Assembly: GCA_028824295.1 (NCBI GenBank)
Contig: JAPPED010000001.1
Span: 1 to 64,000 of the forward strand
Direction of reading: 5' to 3'
Length of the DNA: 64,000 nucleotides
DNA from: Rhodospirillales bacterium
GTDB lineage: Bacteria; Pseudomonadota; Alphaproteobacteria; TMED109
In this document: positions 1 through 14,932 of the stretch, in pieces
Numbering within the stretch: position 1 is the stretch's first letter
Layout of the letters: each line of letters opens with the position of its first letter
Made by a program: the position numbers and the translations under genes
Notes under the pieces: model-generated
Database searches by the model: none
Told to the model about the DNA's origin: nothing
The model's input: only the letters and a program-made list of their open reading frames with translations

Positions 1-975
1 CTCATCGGGACGCTGGAAGTAGTTGGGTGGCCCGTAGTTGAAGGTAGTGCCGTCCCGGGGCACGAACTGGTCGCGCTCTACCTTGTAGTCGAAGCCGTCC
101 AGATCCTGCGCCTTCAGCAGGCCAAAGTCCGAAAAGGTGCCCTGGGGCTGGGTGGCGGAGCCAGAACACATGGTCAGATCGCTGCTCAAGGCACACGAAC
201 TGTAGTCCCGGTCCCCTTGGAGGACCGCCTCGATATCGCGGTACGTTGCATAGACCGTGACGTTGCCCCGGCCGCCACCGAAGCCAGTTCCGGCCACCAG
301 CGATGCATTCGAGATGTCGCCATCCCGGATCGAACCGTCGGCAGTTTGGTAGCCGGCCTCCCGCACGATTCGCTGCCAGCGCCCGTCATCGTTGCCGTGC
401 TGGTACTGGCTGAATTGATACTGAAGCTTGACGCCCTCGAAGTCGTTCAGGAGCCGGAAATTCACGACACCGGCCACAGCGTCCGATCCGTAGGTGGCCG
501 AGGCGCCGCCCGTCAGCACGTCGACGGTCTCGATCAGCGCGCCCGGGATCTGGTTGACGTCGGCGCCGATGCCCCCTTGGAGCGGCGACCCGACCGGGAC
601 GCGGCGGCCGTTGACCAAAACGAGCGTACGGGCGGCCCCCAGCCGGCGGAGATTGAGCGTTGCCGTACCGGTGGCGCTGTTGGACTGGCCTGCCCCCTGT
701 TGGACGAATACCTGCGGGAGGTCGCGGAGCATGTCCTCCACCCGGACGGTGCCCCGGGATGATAGGTCCTCCGCATCCGTCCGCACCAAGGGACTGGAGC
801 TGGTCAGATCAGGCCTTCGGATGCGCGTTCCAGTTACGATCAGCCGCTCAAGCTGCTGCAGTTCCGGGTCGGTGGCAGGATTCTCGTGATCCGATGCCAG
901 GGAGGCTTTCGGGTCGGCCAGCAGGAGCAACGTCACGACGGCCCAACAGCTAATTCGCAAGAAGGTACGTGCCAT
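1..975 (-). CDS. TonB-dependent outer-membrane receptor, N-terminal part (cut by window edge)
   Basis: Outer-membrane active-transport receptor energised by TonB; the substrate cannot be told. The 325 visible residues begin with a signal peptide (about residues 1-28, Leu-rich core) and then the stretch LERLIVTGTRIRRP, the usual entry to the plug domain. The plug runs to about residue 160 and includes the signature GGASATYGSDAVAGVVNFRL. After it comes the start of the beta barrel. The ATG at 975 is preceded by a strong GGAGGAAA ribosome site at about 980-987. The reading frame is open to base 1, so the remaining barrel lies outside the window. The GTRI and NGRRVPVGS pattern is common in proteobacterial receptors of the FepA/BtuB superfamily. 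It is transcribed away from the plus-strand gene group that follows. Confidence 0.93.
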   Translation of the reverse strand, partial: MARTFLRISCWAVVTLLLLADPKASLASDHENPATDPELQQLERLIVTGTRIRRPDLTSSSPLVRTDAEDLSSRGTVRVEDMLRDLPQVFVQQGAGQSNSATGTATLNLRRLGAARTLVLVNGRRVPVGSPLQGGIGADVNQIPGALIETVDVLTGGASATYGSDAVAGVVNFRLLNDFEGVKLQYQFSQYQHGNDDGRWQRIVREAGYQTADGSIRDGDISNASLVAGTGFGGGRGNVTVYATYRDIEAVLQGDRDYSSCALSSDLTMCSGSATQPQGTFSDFGLLKAQDLDGFDYKVERDQFVPRDGTTFNYGPPNYFQRPDE

Positions 976-10463: not shown

Positions 10464-12290
10464 ATGAGGTTCGAGAGATTGGGCAGCCTGCGCCCACTTG
10501 CCGTCGGAGCAATTGGCGCGGCATTGCTCGCCGGTACCGCGCTTGCCGGCAACGTTACCCATGACCGTCTGGTCAATAGTGAGACCGAGCCGGAAAATTG
10601 GATCAACCATCACGGCAACTATGAGGCCCACCGATTCTCGGGTCTCCGCGAAATCAACAAGGACACCGTCGGCGATCTGAAGGTCGCGTTTACCTACGCC
10701 ATGGGCAGCATCCAGGGCGGCGGCACGGACCCGGTGGTGTTTCCGTTCGCGGGCCTGGAAGGCACAACGATTGCCGAGGATGGATTCCTCTACCTGACCA
10801 CTGGTTGGGGAGTGGTGACCAAGCTCGACGTGCGTGGTGGCAAGCCGATCACGGTGTGGAGGTCGGACCCCGAGCCCGACAAGGACTGGGCACCGAGCGT
10901 GCTGTGCTGCGGCATCAACAACCGTGGCGTGGCGCTGCACGGCAACACGGTGCTGTCGCCGGTCATCGACGGTCGCATACGCGCCCTGAACAAGACCGAC
11001 GGAAGCTTGATCTGGGAGGCCCAGGTGGCTGACCCGGGCATCGCCGAGACCATAACCGGCGCGCCACTGATCGTCAGAGACACGGTGGTGACCGGCATGG
11101 CCGGCGCTGAGTTCGGTGTCCGCGGCTGGATTGCTGCGCTTGACATCAACACCGGCGAGGAAATCTGGCGCACCCACACCATTCCTGGGCCGGGCGAGCC
11201 TGGCCACGAGACGTGGAAGGACGACTACGGTGCATGGAAGACCGGTGGTGGTTCGACTTGGGTAACCGGTTCCTACGACCCCGAGTTGAACATCATCGTC
11301 TGGGGCACGGCCAACCCGGGTCCGGACTGGGACAACGCCTACCGTCCCGGCGACAACCTCTGGACCGACAGCACCATCGCGGTGGACGCGACCACGGGTG
11401 AATTCCTGTGGGGCTTCCAGCACACGCCGAACGACCCGTACGACTACGACTCGATTGCGGAGAACACGTTCGTTGACACCGTGATCAACGGCCAGTTCGT
11501 GCGCGCGACCCTGCACGCCAACCGCAACGGTTACGCCTACGCGCTCGACCGTGCAACCGGCGAGTACGTCTGGGGCACGCAGTTCGTCAAGAAGCTGAAC
11601 TGGACGGACGGTCTCGACGAGAACGGCCGACCCAACGCGTACGATCCGAACGTGGACGTTCAGCACTACATTCCGGGTACGGCGGCGTACCGTGGCGACT
11701 TGACCGAAGTCGGCGCGCGGAGCGAGATCGAAGGCATTTCCTGCCCGGCGCACACCGGCGGGAAGAACTGGCCTCCGACCTCCTACAGCCCGCACACCGG
11801 CCTGTACTACATTCCGGTGATCGAGAGCTGCAACAAGGCGTTTGCTGCGGTTTCTCCGAAGAACTTCGACCCGTCAACGCGGCAGTGGTTCCTCGGCGGA
11901 GCGCCGTACTTCACCTTCGACGACCCGCGCTCGGGCCGGATCACCGGCAGCGTGACGGCGATCGACGTATCGACCGGCGTGGTCGTGCGCAAGTGGGAGA
12001 CCGAGTTCCCGATGCTGGGCGGCATTCTGTCGACAGCCGGCGGCTTGGTGTTCACCGGCACGGCTGATGGTGCCGTGGTCGCGCTCGACGACACCACGCT
12101 CGAGGAGCTGTGGCGCTTCGAGACCGGCTCGTCGATCAACGCACCGCCAATGACGTACGAGGCTGACGGCAAGCAGTACATTGCCATTCAGGTCGGCCTG
12201 GGCGGCGCCTGGCCGCAGTGGTTCACCGACTCGACACCCGAGTTGAAAGCCGCTGTGCCGAGCAACGTCCTGTACGTGTTCGCGCTCTAA
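10464..12290 (+). CDS. PQQ-dependent alcohol/methanol dehydrogenase with lanthanide-type DYD motif (XoxF/PedH-like)
   Basis: Periplasmic quinoprotein that oxidises a primary alcohol using pyrroloquinoline quinone and passes electrons to a c-type cytochrome. The 608-residue protein has a signal peptide (1-28, ending ALA) and the eight-bladed propeller Trp-docking repeats (for example DKTDGSLIWEAQV-like, DINTGEEIWR, DATTGEFLWGF). The adjacent cysteines Cys148-Cys149 (VLCCGINNRG) form the ring disulfide over PQQ. GAEFGVRG supplies the metal-binding Glu and GTANPGP the Asn. NDPYDYDS gives catalytic Asp327 and, two residues on, Asp329. An Asp at this +2 position is the known signature of lanthanide-dependent enzymes; calcium MxaF has Ala there. 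GGGAGGAG precedes the ATG. A cytochrome gene follows. Methanol versus longer alcohols cannot be decided by eye. Confidence 0.92.
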   Translation: MRFERLGSLRPLAVGAIGAALLAGTALAGNVTHDRLVNSETEPENWINHHGNYEAHRFSGLREINKDTVGDLKVAFTYAMGSIQGGGTDPVVFPFAGLEGTTIAEDGFLYLTTGWGVVTKLDVRGGKPITVWRSDPEPDKDWAPSVLCCGINNRGVALHGNTVLSPVIDGRIRALNKTDGSLIWEAQVADPGIAETITGAPLIVRDTVVTGMAGAEFGVRGWIAALDINTGEEIWRTHTIPGPGEPGHETWKDDYGAWKTGGGSTWVTGSYDPELNIIVWGTANPGPDWDNAYRPGDNLWTDSTIAVDATTGEFLWGFQHTPNDPYDYDSIAENTFVDTVINGQFVRATLHANRNGYAYALDRATGEYVWGTQFVKKLNWTDGLDENGRPNAYDPNVDVQHYIPGTAAYRGDLTEVGARSEIEGISCPAHTGGKNWPPTSYSPHTGLYYIPVIESCNKAFAAVSPKNFDPSTRQWFLGGAPYFTFDDPRSGRITGSVTAIDVSTGVVVRKWETEFPMLGGILSTAGGLVFTGTADGAVVALDDTTLEELWRFETGSSINAPPMTYEADGKQYIAIQVGLGGAWPQWFTDSTPELKAAVPSNVLYVFAL

Positions 12291-12305
12291 ACGGCGTATT
12301 TCGAT

Positions 12306-12333
12306 GCGGGCCGGCCGCTTGCGGCCGGCCCGC
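12306..12333 (+). terminator. Rho-independent terminator after the dehydrogenase
   Basis: Thirteen-base GC-only arms, GCGGGCCGGCCGC at 12306-12318 and its exact complement at 12321-12333, are followed by ACTTTGTTTCT. It begins 16 bases after the dehydrogenase stop, so the following cytochrome gene probably has its own promoter or depends on read-through. Confidence 0.8.
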
Positions 12334-12469
12334 ACTTTGTTTCTCCGGGCGCGACTGGTCGCTCCAGCCCCCGGCGGTGACGCGTCTCAGAAATTGATCT
12401 GAAAAGCTAAGCGTCCCACAGAAGCGTCTTACACAGGCCGGGCTCCGCCAGTGGGCCGGATTTCACGAC

Positions 12470-12931
12470 ATGCACGATTTCAACAAGCAAGGACGAGTCC
12501 TCGTCGGTCTGACGGCGGCAACAGTTGTTGGCCTGGCGGCATTCGCAATGCCGGTTGGCCCGGCCATAGCGGCCGATGAGAAACCACGACGTTCAGGCCC
12601 ACCGCCAATCGTGTTCACGGAATTTCCGAACGAGTGCGCCCGCTGCCACAAGGCGGATGGTCGTGGCGGACCAGCGTACGGCGGTTTCGCGGCCGACCTA
12701 CGCGTCACGCTGCTCGATCACGATGGCCTGGTTTACGTGATCACCGTCGGGATTCGTGACCGCGGCATGCCAGAGTTCAAGAGCACGATGTCGAAGCGCG
12801 AAATAGCCGGCATCGCGACCTACATCGAAGATCACATCAAGGGCGTCTATTTCGACGATGCCGGCAACCGGATTACGGCTGAAGAGGCGGCGCAACTGGA
12901 AGGTCCGCGCCGCGCTGTTTCGCAGCAATAG
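12470..12931 (+). CDS. Periplasmic c-type cytochrome, probable electron acceptor of the quinoprotein
   Basis: A 153-residue secreted single-haem class I cytochrome c. Signal peptide spans about residues 1-35 (VVGLAAFAMPVGPAIA). The haem site is CARCH (Cys56, Cys59, His60) and the probable distal ligand is Met100 in DRGMPEFKS. SKREIAGIATYIEDHI is the usual C-terminal helix that packs on the N-terminal one. Position directly after the PQQ dehydrogenase suggests the role played by XoxG or PedF, which is inference. The ATG at 12470 has no strong ribosome site, so the start is only fairly sure. The terminator hairpin at 12306-12333 lies between the two genes. Confidence 0.88.
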   Translation: MHDFNKQGRVLVGLTAATVVGLAAFAMPVGPAIAADEKPRRSGPPPIVFTEFPNECARCHKADGRGGPAYGGFAADLRVTLLDHDGLVYVITVGIRDRGMPEFKSTMSKREIAGIATYIEDHIKGVYFDDAGNRITAEEAAQLEGPRRAVSQQ

Positions 12932-13020: not shown

Positions 13021-13443
13021 TTACTCCGCCTCTGCGCGCAACGCTGCCTTGAGCTGCTCAGGCGTCAACATGCGTTCCAGTCGGCGCTTCCACGGGATCA
13101 GATAATCCTCGCCCTCGGCGATGGCCTTTGTGATCCATTGGTGCGCTTCAACGTTGTCATGGTGCTGGCCTTTGCCCGCCTGCAAATGAACCATCTTGAA
13201 CAGCATGCGCCCGCCGAGGAAACCGGCCGCGCGTGCACGGGACGCCCATCGATAGGCATCGCTGTAGTCCCCACTTTCGCGCGCCGCGTCATACGCTTCG
13301 CGACCGATCATGTACATGGCGTGCACGTCGCCGTTCTCGGCCTTGCACAAGTTGCCTTCCGGCCCCAGCGGACAATCTTCGGCTGCCGCCTGCACCACAC
13401 TGGCGCTTACGATGAGTGCGAAAAAGGGAGCCGCCCACTTCAT
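13021..13443 (-). CDS. Exported Sel1/TPR-like repeat protein
   Basis: A 140-residue protein with a clean signal peptide (MKWAAPFFALIVSASVVQAAA) followed by helical repeats rich in Ala and aromatic residues: MYMIGREAYDAARESGDYSDAYRWASRARAAG resembles one Sel1/TPR repeat pair and NVEAHQWITKAIAEGE another. Two cysteines near the mature N-terminus could form a disulfide. Such proteins usually act as periplasmic scaffolds; function here is unknown. It belongs to a minus-strand group with the Rap1a-like and SoxYZ-like genes, converging on the cytochrome gene. The ATG at 13443 follows GGAACC. Confidence 0.68.
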   Translation of the reverse strand: MKWAAPFFALIVSASVVQAAAEDCPLGPEGNLCKAENGDVHAMYMIGREAYDAARESGDYSDAYRWASRARAAGFLGGRMLFKMVHLQAGKGQHHDNVEAHQWITKAIAEGEDYLIPWKRRLERMLTPEQLKAALRAEAE

Positions 13444-13575: not shown

Positions 13576-14019
13576 TCAGGACGACCGACACGGCGCACTG
13601 AGTTCAATGGCTTCCACAAAGGCCACTGCCGCGGGTTCGCGCATCAACGGGGGCCGTCGCCCGACCCAGGTCACGAACGTTGCCGACAGGTCACGCAGAT
13701 CCTCGGGAACCGTGACGCACTGCCAGCGCGGCGAGCCGTCAAGGGCGAACTGCCCGGCTTCAATCATCGTGACGATCGCGCCGACGACAGCCCGGCACTG
13801 AACCATCAGCATCCAGCGGTAAAACTGTTCGCCGACCACGTCCTTCGAGCCCTCGATTTCCTGGCTGCAGGCAAATTTGAGGTCGGATCCGGTTACGACT
13901 GCATCGATCGGACCGTTAGGCGGCGATCCACCCGCCGCGAGTGCGGACCCCGCACCCATGGTTGCGGAGAGCCCGAGAACCACTCCGATCATCGCCCAAT
14001 TGCGAAGCCGTTTACCCAT
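13576..14019 (-). CDS. Exported small protein of Rap1a/Tai type
   Basis: About 147 residues with a signal peptide ending near GSALAAGG. The mature part shows the cysteine spacing of Rap1a/Tai-like domains: a first Cys in LKFACSQE, QCRAVVGAI with the small Gly-containing helix, WQCVTVPED, then FVTWVGRRPPL, an Ala-rich helix and a terminal PC. Rap1a/Tai proteins include type VI immunity proteins, but the domain is widespread in exported proteins without that role and no type VI genes lie nearby. ATG 14019 is preferred because GGGAGA lies about 12 bases upstream; a GTG at 14040 would add seven residues. It is probably in one operon with the flanking minus-strand genes. Confidence 0.6.
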   Translation of the reverse strand: MGKRLRNWAMIGVVLGLSATMGAGSALAAGGSPPNGPIDAVVTGSDLKFACSQEIEGSKDVVGEQFYRWMLMVQCRAVVGAIVTMIEAGQFALDGSPRWQCVTVPEDLRDLSATFVTWVGRRPPLMREPAAVAFVEAIELSAPCRSS

Positions 14020-14125
14020 GACGGCGAATCTCCCATCCACGCGCTGTCGCCCATCGGCGAGCGCATGTGCCTAGTGCTTGCGTTTCATTGCCGGCCTGAC
14101 CTGCCGCCAGGCCTTGGCCGGTCCC

Positions 14126-14932
14126 CTAGGTTCTGCCGTCTCGGTCGCGGCGCGATGCTTCCAGAAGATCGAAGGTTAGGCCCTTCGAATCGGAGGCGGT
14201 TACGCGGACTGTCTGAAGGCGGTCGGGAAGGTCGAAATAGAAGTCCGGATTGGTGGCGAGCGCAGCCGAGGTCACCAGGTCGGCGATCGGGCCTGCGCTG
14301 TCGGCGAGGGTGACGGTGTCCACGTAGTAGGCGGGGACGACTGCGCCGTCCTCGTCAGTCACAAGGCCGGTATCCATAGGATGAGTGATGCGCAACTTGA
14401 GCCGCGTCGCGCTATTTGGTCGCCGGAATCGCTTCATCGCGATCGTGCCGACCGGATTCTCCGCGCTGCCCGATCCGCCAGCGGCGGTGCAACCGCCAGG
14501 ATTCATGACCTCAACCCTGACGCTTGCTACGTGCCAAACGCCATCAGCGTCGCGGGCCGCAGCGCGGACTGGCGTCGTCTGCTCCAGGCGGATGTTCATC
14601 CCCACCGAGCGGATCTCCCGCCGCGGGAACATTCTGGCAGCGGTCTGGATGGGATTGTTTTCCGCGATCACCACCACTTCCTCGACCGGTTGCACGCGGT
14701 CGGACAGCTCGATCACCACCGGCACGCTGAACGCGTCCTCGACCTGACGCGGGATGATCAGCCGGACCTGGAAGTCATACTTGACCGGTCCATCGCCGAG
14801 AAACTCGGTGTGCATGTCTTCCCACAAGGCCGAGCGCATCGGATCGTAGTCTCCTGCCTGCGGCGCGCCGGCGGCCGTCAGGAGGGCGGCGCAGGCTGCC
14901 ACGAGGGCGATGCCGGGTCGGTTCATTTGCAC
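14126..14932 (-). CDS. SoxYZ-like fused carrier protein, quinoprotein-dehydrogenase-associated type
   Basis: A 268-residue exported fusion of a SoxY-like domain (about residues 35-145) and a SoxZ-like domain (about 165-265). In SoxYZ a cysteine of a GGC motif carries the sulfur substrate; here MNPGGCTAAG places Cys148 between the two domains rather than at a chain end. The SoxZ half has KLRITHPMDTGL, NPDFYFDLP and VRVTASDSKG, matching the thiosulfate-oxidation carrier fold. A signal peptide covers residues 1-26. The family is known to sit beside PQQ-dependent dehydrogenases, as here, where it may carry a C1 or other substrate; its biochemistry is unknown. Start ATG 14932. No other Sox genes are seen. 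Confidence 0.82.
   Translation of the reverse strand: MQMNRPGIALVAACAALLTAAGAPQAGDYDPMRSALWEDMHTEFLGDGPVKYDFQVRLIIPRQVEDAFSVPVVIELSDRVQPVEEVVVIAENNPIQTAARMFPRREIRSVGMNIRLEQTTPVRAAARDADGVWHVASVRVEVMNPGGCTAAGGSGSAENPVGTIAMKRFRRPNSATRLKLRITHPMDTGLVTDEDGAVVPAYYVDTVTLADSAGPIADLVTSAALATNPDFYFDLPDRLQTVRVTASDSKGLTFDLLEASRRDRDGRT

Follow-up and report, generated by a model that had tools for sequence, protein, structure and literature searches.

PQQ-dependent alcohol dehydrogenases share a mechanism in which hydride passes from the alcohol to PQQ, with an aspartate acting as the base and the metal as a Lewis acid, and the electrons then go to cytochrome c. In the ocean, the majority of PQQ dehydrogenase genes encode lanthanide-type quinoproteins, which carry the D-x-D motif, but the solved lanthanide enzymes are only of the XoxF and PedH types. 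D-x-D is found in 61% of marine PQQ dehydrogenases, and a single marine genome can encode as many as 70 lanthanide-type enzymes (PMC11996626). At the motif, XoxF5 of M. extorquens reads HDEWDFDG, PedH reads HDGWDFDG, and MxaF reads DYAG. The D-x-D motif alone is no proof of lanthanide use, because a calcium-containing XoxF1 is known; this enzyme of Ca. Methylomirabilis oxyfera, which has the same Asp, was purified with calcium according to the accounts in PMC9291206 and PMC8561711, and PedH can also take calcium (reviewed in PMC11845868).

Six such PQQ dehydrogenase genes are reported for M. aquaticum 22A. Its ExaF (Maq22A_c07235) is described as having Asp301, being induced by La, and being 37% identical to ExaF of AM1 (PMC5784242), and it is filed as PQQ-ADH type 6b (PMC7356819). 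As the sole remaining gene, it is reported to support slow La-dependent growth on ethanol and to make no contribution on methanol (PMC5784242, PMC7356819). The other two non-methanol enzymes of this strain, adh4 and adh6, are described as type 6a and are encoded on plasmid 1p, with Ala301 in adh6. The type labels used here follow papers that cite the original classifications. Here we describe a dehydrogenase gene in a stretch of 64,000 nucleotides from a Rhodospirillales bacterium (positions 1 to 64,000 of contig JAPPED010000001.1; hereafter the window). The encoded protein is probably a type I PQQ alcohol dehydrogenase that works in the periplasm, belongs to the PQQ-ADH type 6b clade, and is of the lanthanide type with C2+ substrates.

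The gene product and its predicted metal site

The gene is an intact, uninterrupted open reading frame (10464-12290, + strand) of 608 codons for amino acids, preceded by a plausible ribosome site, GGGAGGAG. The product scores 521.9 bits against TIGR03075 (PQQ-dependent dehydrogenase, methanol/ethanol family; NCBIfam), above the curated cut-off of 480.05 bits, and also matches the Pfam PQQ propeller PF01011. Judged by its sequence, the protein has an export signal, an eight-bladed propeller fold, the PQQ-dehydrogenase residues, a vicinal Cys pair, and a predicted four-ligand site formed by Glu216, Asn284, Asp327, and Asp329 (Table 1). The solved structures nearest in sequence are PedH, XoxF5, and quinohaemoprotein ADHs, with a maximum of ~37% identity. 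Assignment to the quinohaemoprotein (type II) ADHs was rejected: the window protein consists of the propeller only, has no C-terminal cytochrome c domain, and has its cytochrome encoded separately. A phage search gave glucose-dehydrogenase-like matches only.

Table 1. Features of the dehydrogenase locus in the window
Feature	Position	Strand	Evidence
PQQ-dependent alcohol dehydrogenase, 608 aa, lanthanide-type (D-x-D)	10464..12290	+	TIGR03075, PF01011, AlphaFold model
Sec-type signal peptide, residues 1 to ~29	10464..10550	+	sequence; pLDDT <50 for most of residues 1-23 (low-confidence model end)
Cys148-Cys149, adjacent-cysteine disulphide motif	10905..10910	+	aligns with CC of XoxF, MxaF, PedH, ExaA
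Glu216, predicted metal ligand	11109..11111	+	aligns with Glu ligand (Glu172 of XoxF2)
Asn284, predicted metal ligand	11313..11315	+	aligns with Asn ligand (Asn256 of XoxF2)
Asp327, predicted metal ligand and catalytic base	11442..11444	+	invariant in 43 relatives
Asp329, extra lanthanide-type aspartate	11448..11450	+	invariant in 43 relatives and 80/80 clade rows
GC-rich hairpin with T-rich tail, terminator- or attenuator-like, between dehydrogenase and cytochrome genes	12305..12334	+	-31.6 kcal/mol, z -3.3; pattern scan
Secreted cytochrome c with one haem (CARCH, 12635-12649), probable electron acceptor	12470..12931	+	PF13442 38.7 bits
Secreted 140-aa protein, no assigned function, convergent to cytochrome gene	13021..13443	-	conserved neighbour
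Secreted 154-aa protein, neighbour of no assigned function	13576..14040	-	only in same genus among neighbourhoods examined
Fused SoxYZ-like carrier, quinoprotein dehydrogenase-associated family	14126..14932	-	TIGR04557 164.4 bits vs cut-off 140

A preliminary description of this DNA had read Asp327 and Asp329 (YDYDS) as a lanthanide-type D-x-D motif, and alignment with solved XoxF, PedH, and MxaF bears this out. The residues Asp327-Tyr328-Asp329-Ser330 are located in TPNDPYDYDSIAE (codons 11442-11453). The adjacent cysteines and the metal-binding Glu and Asn that it had also named were recovered by alignment as Cys148-Cys149, Glu216, and Asn284, and the reference alignments agree with its comparison of the flanks, NDPYDYDS instead of the HDEWDFDG of XoxF, and with Ala in MxaF. 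The metal ligands of the lanthanide-type site are listed in PMC11845868. An alignment of 43 relatives, with identities down to 40%, shows no variation at Asp327 or Asp329, and each of the 80 tree members of the window clade retains Asp329; hence, the motif is not a chance occurrence. MxaF shares the fold, the catalytic Asp, and the CC motif, but has Ala at the position of Asp329, and membership in MxaF was rejected on this ground.

The window protein has D-x-D, Glu, Asn, and CC in common with XoxF1-XoxF5, but its wider metal site is not XoxF-like. The equivalents of Gly171 and Thr259 in XoxF2, two positions discussed in the literature, are Ala215 and Pro287, which are the MxaF states at these secondary positions. 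Pro at the position equivalent to Pro287 also exists in PedH, and Ala or Gly at the position equivalent to 215 varies even among XoxF5 proteins. Ala215 as a sign of calcium was rejected, since Ala is also located there in two XoxF5-like proteins (L120 and L028) and the position varies within the window clade.

The AlphaFold model of the window protein has a mean pLDDT of 92.9, with values of 93-98 in the ligand-holding blocks. The best PDB match to the model is PedH (6zcw, solved with Pr; TM 0.84/0.91), followed by XoxF2 and XoxF5, and lanthanide enzymes account for five of the first six matches.

A separate clade and its probable studied member

Two trees were built, one of 144 proteins and a careful one of 53. 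The window protein falls into a clade with 100/100 support on a long branch, with zero reference enzymes inside and apart from XoxF, PedH, and MxaF. Forcing the clade together with XoxF/MxaF was rejected by the AU test (p 0.0108), as was forcing it together with PedH/ExaA (p 0.0103). Membership in XoxF was therefore rejected, and so was membership in PedH/ExaF type 2b; the closest solved relative of the window protein reaches only ~37% identity, compared with 63-67% between type 2b proteins and PedH. The D-x-D motif is widespread on the tree and is no surprise by itself. Asp329 has changed three times, in MxaF, ExaA, and the quinohaemoproteins, all of which are calcium enzymes, and never in the window clade. 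The clade contains no characterised calcium enzyme and no solved structure. A sister subclade of 25 rows (a subset of L079-L114, e.g. L082, L084, L101, and L145) retains Asp329, replaces the Glu ligand by Asp, and has no Cys pair (GDNP...DYDE); in one of its rows (L114), an Asn is aligned at the catalytic Asp position.

The gene is present in 7/7 genomes of the genus at 90-100% identity and as one copy in each of 6 other genomes of the family, at 52-55% identity to the window protein. Among the named genomes scanned, relatives occur in Bradyrhizobium, Methylobacterium, Methylocella, Beijerinckia, Rhodopila, Hyphomicrobium, Burkholderiales, and other MAGs, and the clade spans Alpha-, Beta-, and Gammaproteobacteria. 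The Methylocella silvestris 'group 9' ADHs (PMC9291206) were considered as a reference for the clade and dropped, because a search of 12 genomes of the Methylocella group found the gene in M. tundrae alone.

In the Methylobacterium group, 8 of the 59 genomes contain the window clade, and the identity between its Methylobacterium members and type 2b ExaF is 36-39%, in line with the published 37% for ExaF of 22A. Five such genes are present in M. frigidaeris: two are XoxF5-like, one encodes a quinohaemoprotein, one is of the type 6a kind, and one belongs to the window clade. In a search of plasmid pMaq22A_1p (NZ_AP014705.1), one gene shares 95.8% identity with the M. frigidaeris enzyme that has DWDE and no CC, a second has DWAA, in agreement with Ala301 as published for adh6, and none belongs to the window clade. 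Since both type 6a genes are thus on 1p, no clade gene exists there, and the identity to type 2b is as expected, ExaF of 22A most likely belongs to the window clade; this assignment is by elimination. ExaF of 22A, which would then share its clade with the window protein, has Asp301 and 37% identity to AM1 ExaF, is chromosomal, comes from clade C1 Methylobacterium, and is reported to give La-dependent growth on ethanol (PMC5784242, PMC7356819). The Methylobacterium members are ~55% identical to the window protein; at this distance, the substrate range of ExaF of 22A may not carry over.

The suggestion in the preliminary description of a less studied clade thus holds in that no solved structure lies inside, yet the clade is not new and probably includes ExaF of M. 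aquaticum 22A. The original observation is sound and was correctly read, and it concerns a known, widespread, and under-studied clade rather than a new kind of system. It is of modest interest, since enzymes with D-x-D are plentiful and one member of the clade has probably been studied before.

Neighbouring genes of the dehydrogenase

The hairpin at 12305-12334 has 13 pairs, and almost every relative that was folded has a strong hairpin, of differing sequence, after the ADH stop; the recurrence of these hairpins in the same place suggests attenuation or transcript stabilisation between the ADH and cytochrome genes. Of 33 loci, 30 have a cytochrome c homologue next to the dehydrogenase; in two of the other three, the contig ends there. 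The cytochrome c encoded at 12470-12931 is very likely to be the electron acceptor of the dehydrogenase. The 140-aa protein at 13021-13443 is present in all nine loci with the same kind of cytochrome c, in Alpha- and Betaproteobacteria, and has no Pfam match, and the 154-aa protein at 13576-14040 has neither a Pfam nor an NCBIfam match. SoxYZ-like carriers accompany ADHs with adjacent cysteines, with proposed roles in disulphide formation or PQQ protection (PMC12997753).

Compared with the window locus, the clusters of the Methylobacterium members of the clade add a PCuAC-like gene and have a different unassigned gene. In Bradyrhizobium, Methylobacterium, and relatives (L047, L051, L055, L062, and others), a frequent cluster consists of a PCuAC-like chaperone, the dehydrogenase, cytochrome c, and a ~220-aa periplasmic protein without a Pfam match. 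PedH and ExaF of AM1 (type 2b) share the lanthanide ligands, the CC motif, a cytochrome c partner, and a nearby SoxYZ-like carrier with the window locus, but differ in their ~33-37% identity, in their separate clade, and, for PedH, in a Gly where the window protein has Ala before the Glu ligand.

No XoxJ (TIGR03871) match was found near the window dehydrogenase, and the XoxF5 of the same genome is another gene. A methanol dehydrogenase of the XoxF kind would share the fold, the motif, the family model, and the cytochrome c alongside; however, such an identity is very improbable for the window protein in view of the tree and the AU test, the missing XoxJ neighbour, the true XoxF5 with XoxG and XoxJ elsewhere in the genome, and the failure of ExaF of 22A to give methanol growth in the published account. 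A further, rather doubtful possibility is that the clade forms a self-contained lanthanide alcohol-oxidation module without XoxJ, in which the dehydrogenase and its own cytochrome c would be joined by a lineage-specific secreted accessory with a role in metal loading, enzyme maturation, or electron transfer. The candidates for such an accessory would be the 140-aa protein here, and the 220-aa protein and the PCuAC-like chaperone in Bradyrhizobium and Methylobacterium.

Paralogous dehydrogenases, metal, and substrate

The genome encodes seven PQQ dehydrogenases of the family, all seven with D-x-D, in addition to a BamB-like protein, and no calcium-type enzyme was found. Seven D-x-D enzymes in one genome are not exceptional, considering the marine genomes with up to 70. 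The nearest paralogues are 33-43% identical, and a cytochrome c gene is located within 0.24-1.2 kb of six of the seven. One of the seven is XoxF5, which shares 70% identity with the solved Methylomicrobium buryatense enzyme of this type and has genes for cytochrome c and XoxJ next to it; its region (C3:212939-220349) contains xoxJ, cytochrome c, XoxF5, a SoxH-like metallohydrolase (TIGR04559), and a SoxYZ-like carrier (TIGR04557). The genome also has pqqE, for PQQ synthesis. In another genome of the genus (G006), two dehydrogenases without D-x-D were observed, with DWAA and DYNS (C19:11314-12924 and C106:30891-32537; L172 and L182).

The preliminary reading of a lanthanide-type enzyme is supported by the four ligands, the clade-wide Asp329, the lack of a characterised calcium enzyme in the clade, and lanthanide-bound PedH as the top structural match, and we consider a lanthanide the metal of the window enzyme with high confidence. 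Alternatively, the enzyme could be facultative or calcium-using, its D-x-D site accepting calcium in the cell and lanthanide use being incidental, in accordance with the calcium-containing XoxF1 with the same Asp, the calcium uptake of PedH (PMC11845868), and the MxaF-like Ala215 and Pro287. This is unlikely, because Asp329 is kept across a deep clade and lost in the known calcium groups, ExaF of 22A, which likely belongs to the clade, is induced by La and takes part in La-dependent growth, and the same genome has a lanthanide-type XoxF5 system and, as far as found, no calcium-type enzyme.

The separate xoxFGJ system for methanol in the same genome makes C2+ substrates rather than methanol likely, and we lean towards C2+ alcohols as the substrate. 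The seven divergent PQQ dehydrogenases, six of them with an adjacent cytochrome c gene, suggest different substrates, so that the window enzyme might oxidise a specialised larger alcohol or a sugar, with lanthanide or calcium, instead of short-chain alcohols. We give this only a minor share of the probability, as no conserved catabolic neighbours in the relatives hint at a special substrate and the family model is of the methanol/ethanol type. The window enzyme is most likely a lanthanide-dependent oxidase of C2+ alcohols. Its site would hold a light lanthanide ion acting as a Lewis acid on PQQ, Asp327 would take the proton from the alcohol as the hydride moves to PQQ, and the electrons would leave singly to the adjacent-encoded cytochrome c and then to an oxidase; the putative substrates are alcohols or aldehydes of two or more carbons and not methanol.

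A clade without a structure and with at most one genetically studied member is a clean target for asking whether D-x-D predicts lanthanide use outside XoxF and PedH, and a genome with seven D-x-D enzymes and no calcium type found is a good case for the role of so many lanthanide-type enzymes. Elsewhere in this genome, a SoxYZ-like match (C34:88233-88829) contains one in-frame TAG and is possibly a decayed copy or an assembly error. The genome has twelve TonB plug domains, and a TonB-dependent receptor plug domain is located at 466-780 (- strand) of the window, within an open frame of 374 aa close to the start of the window.
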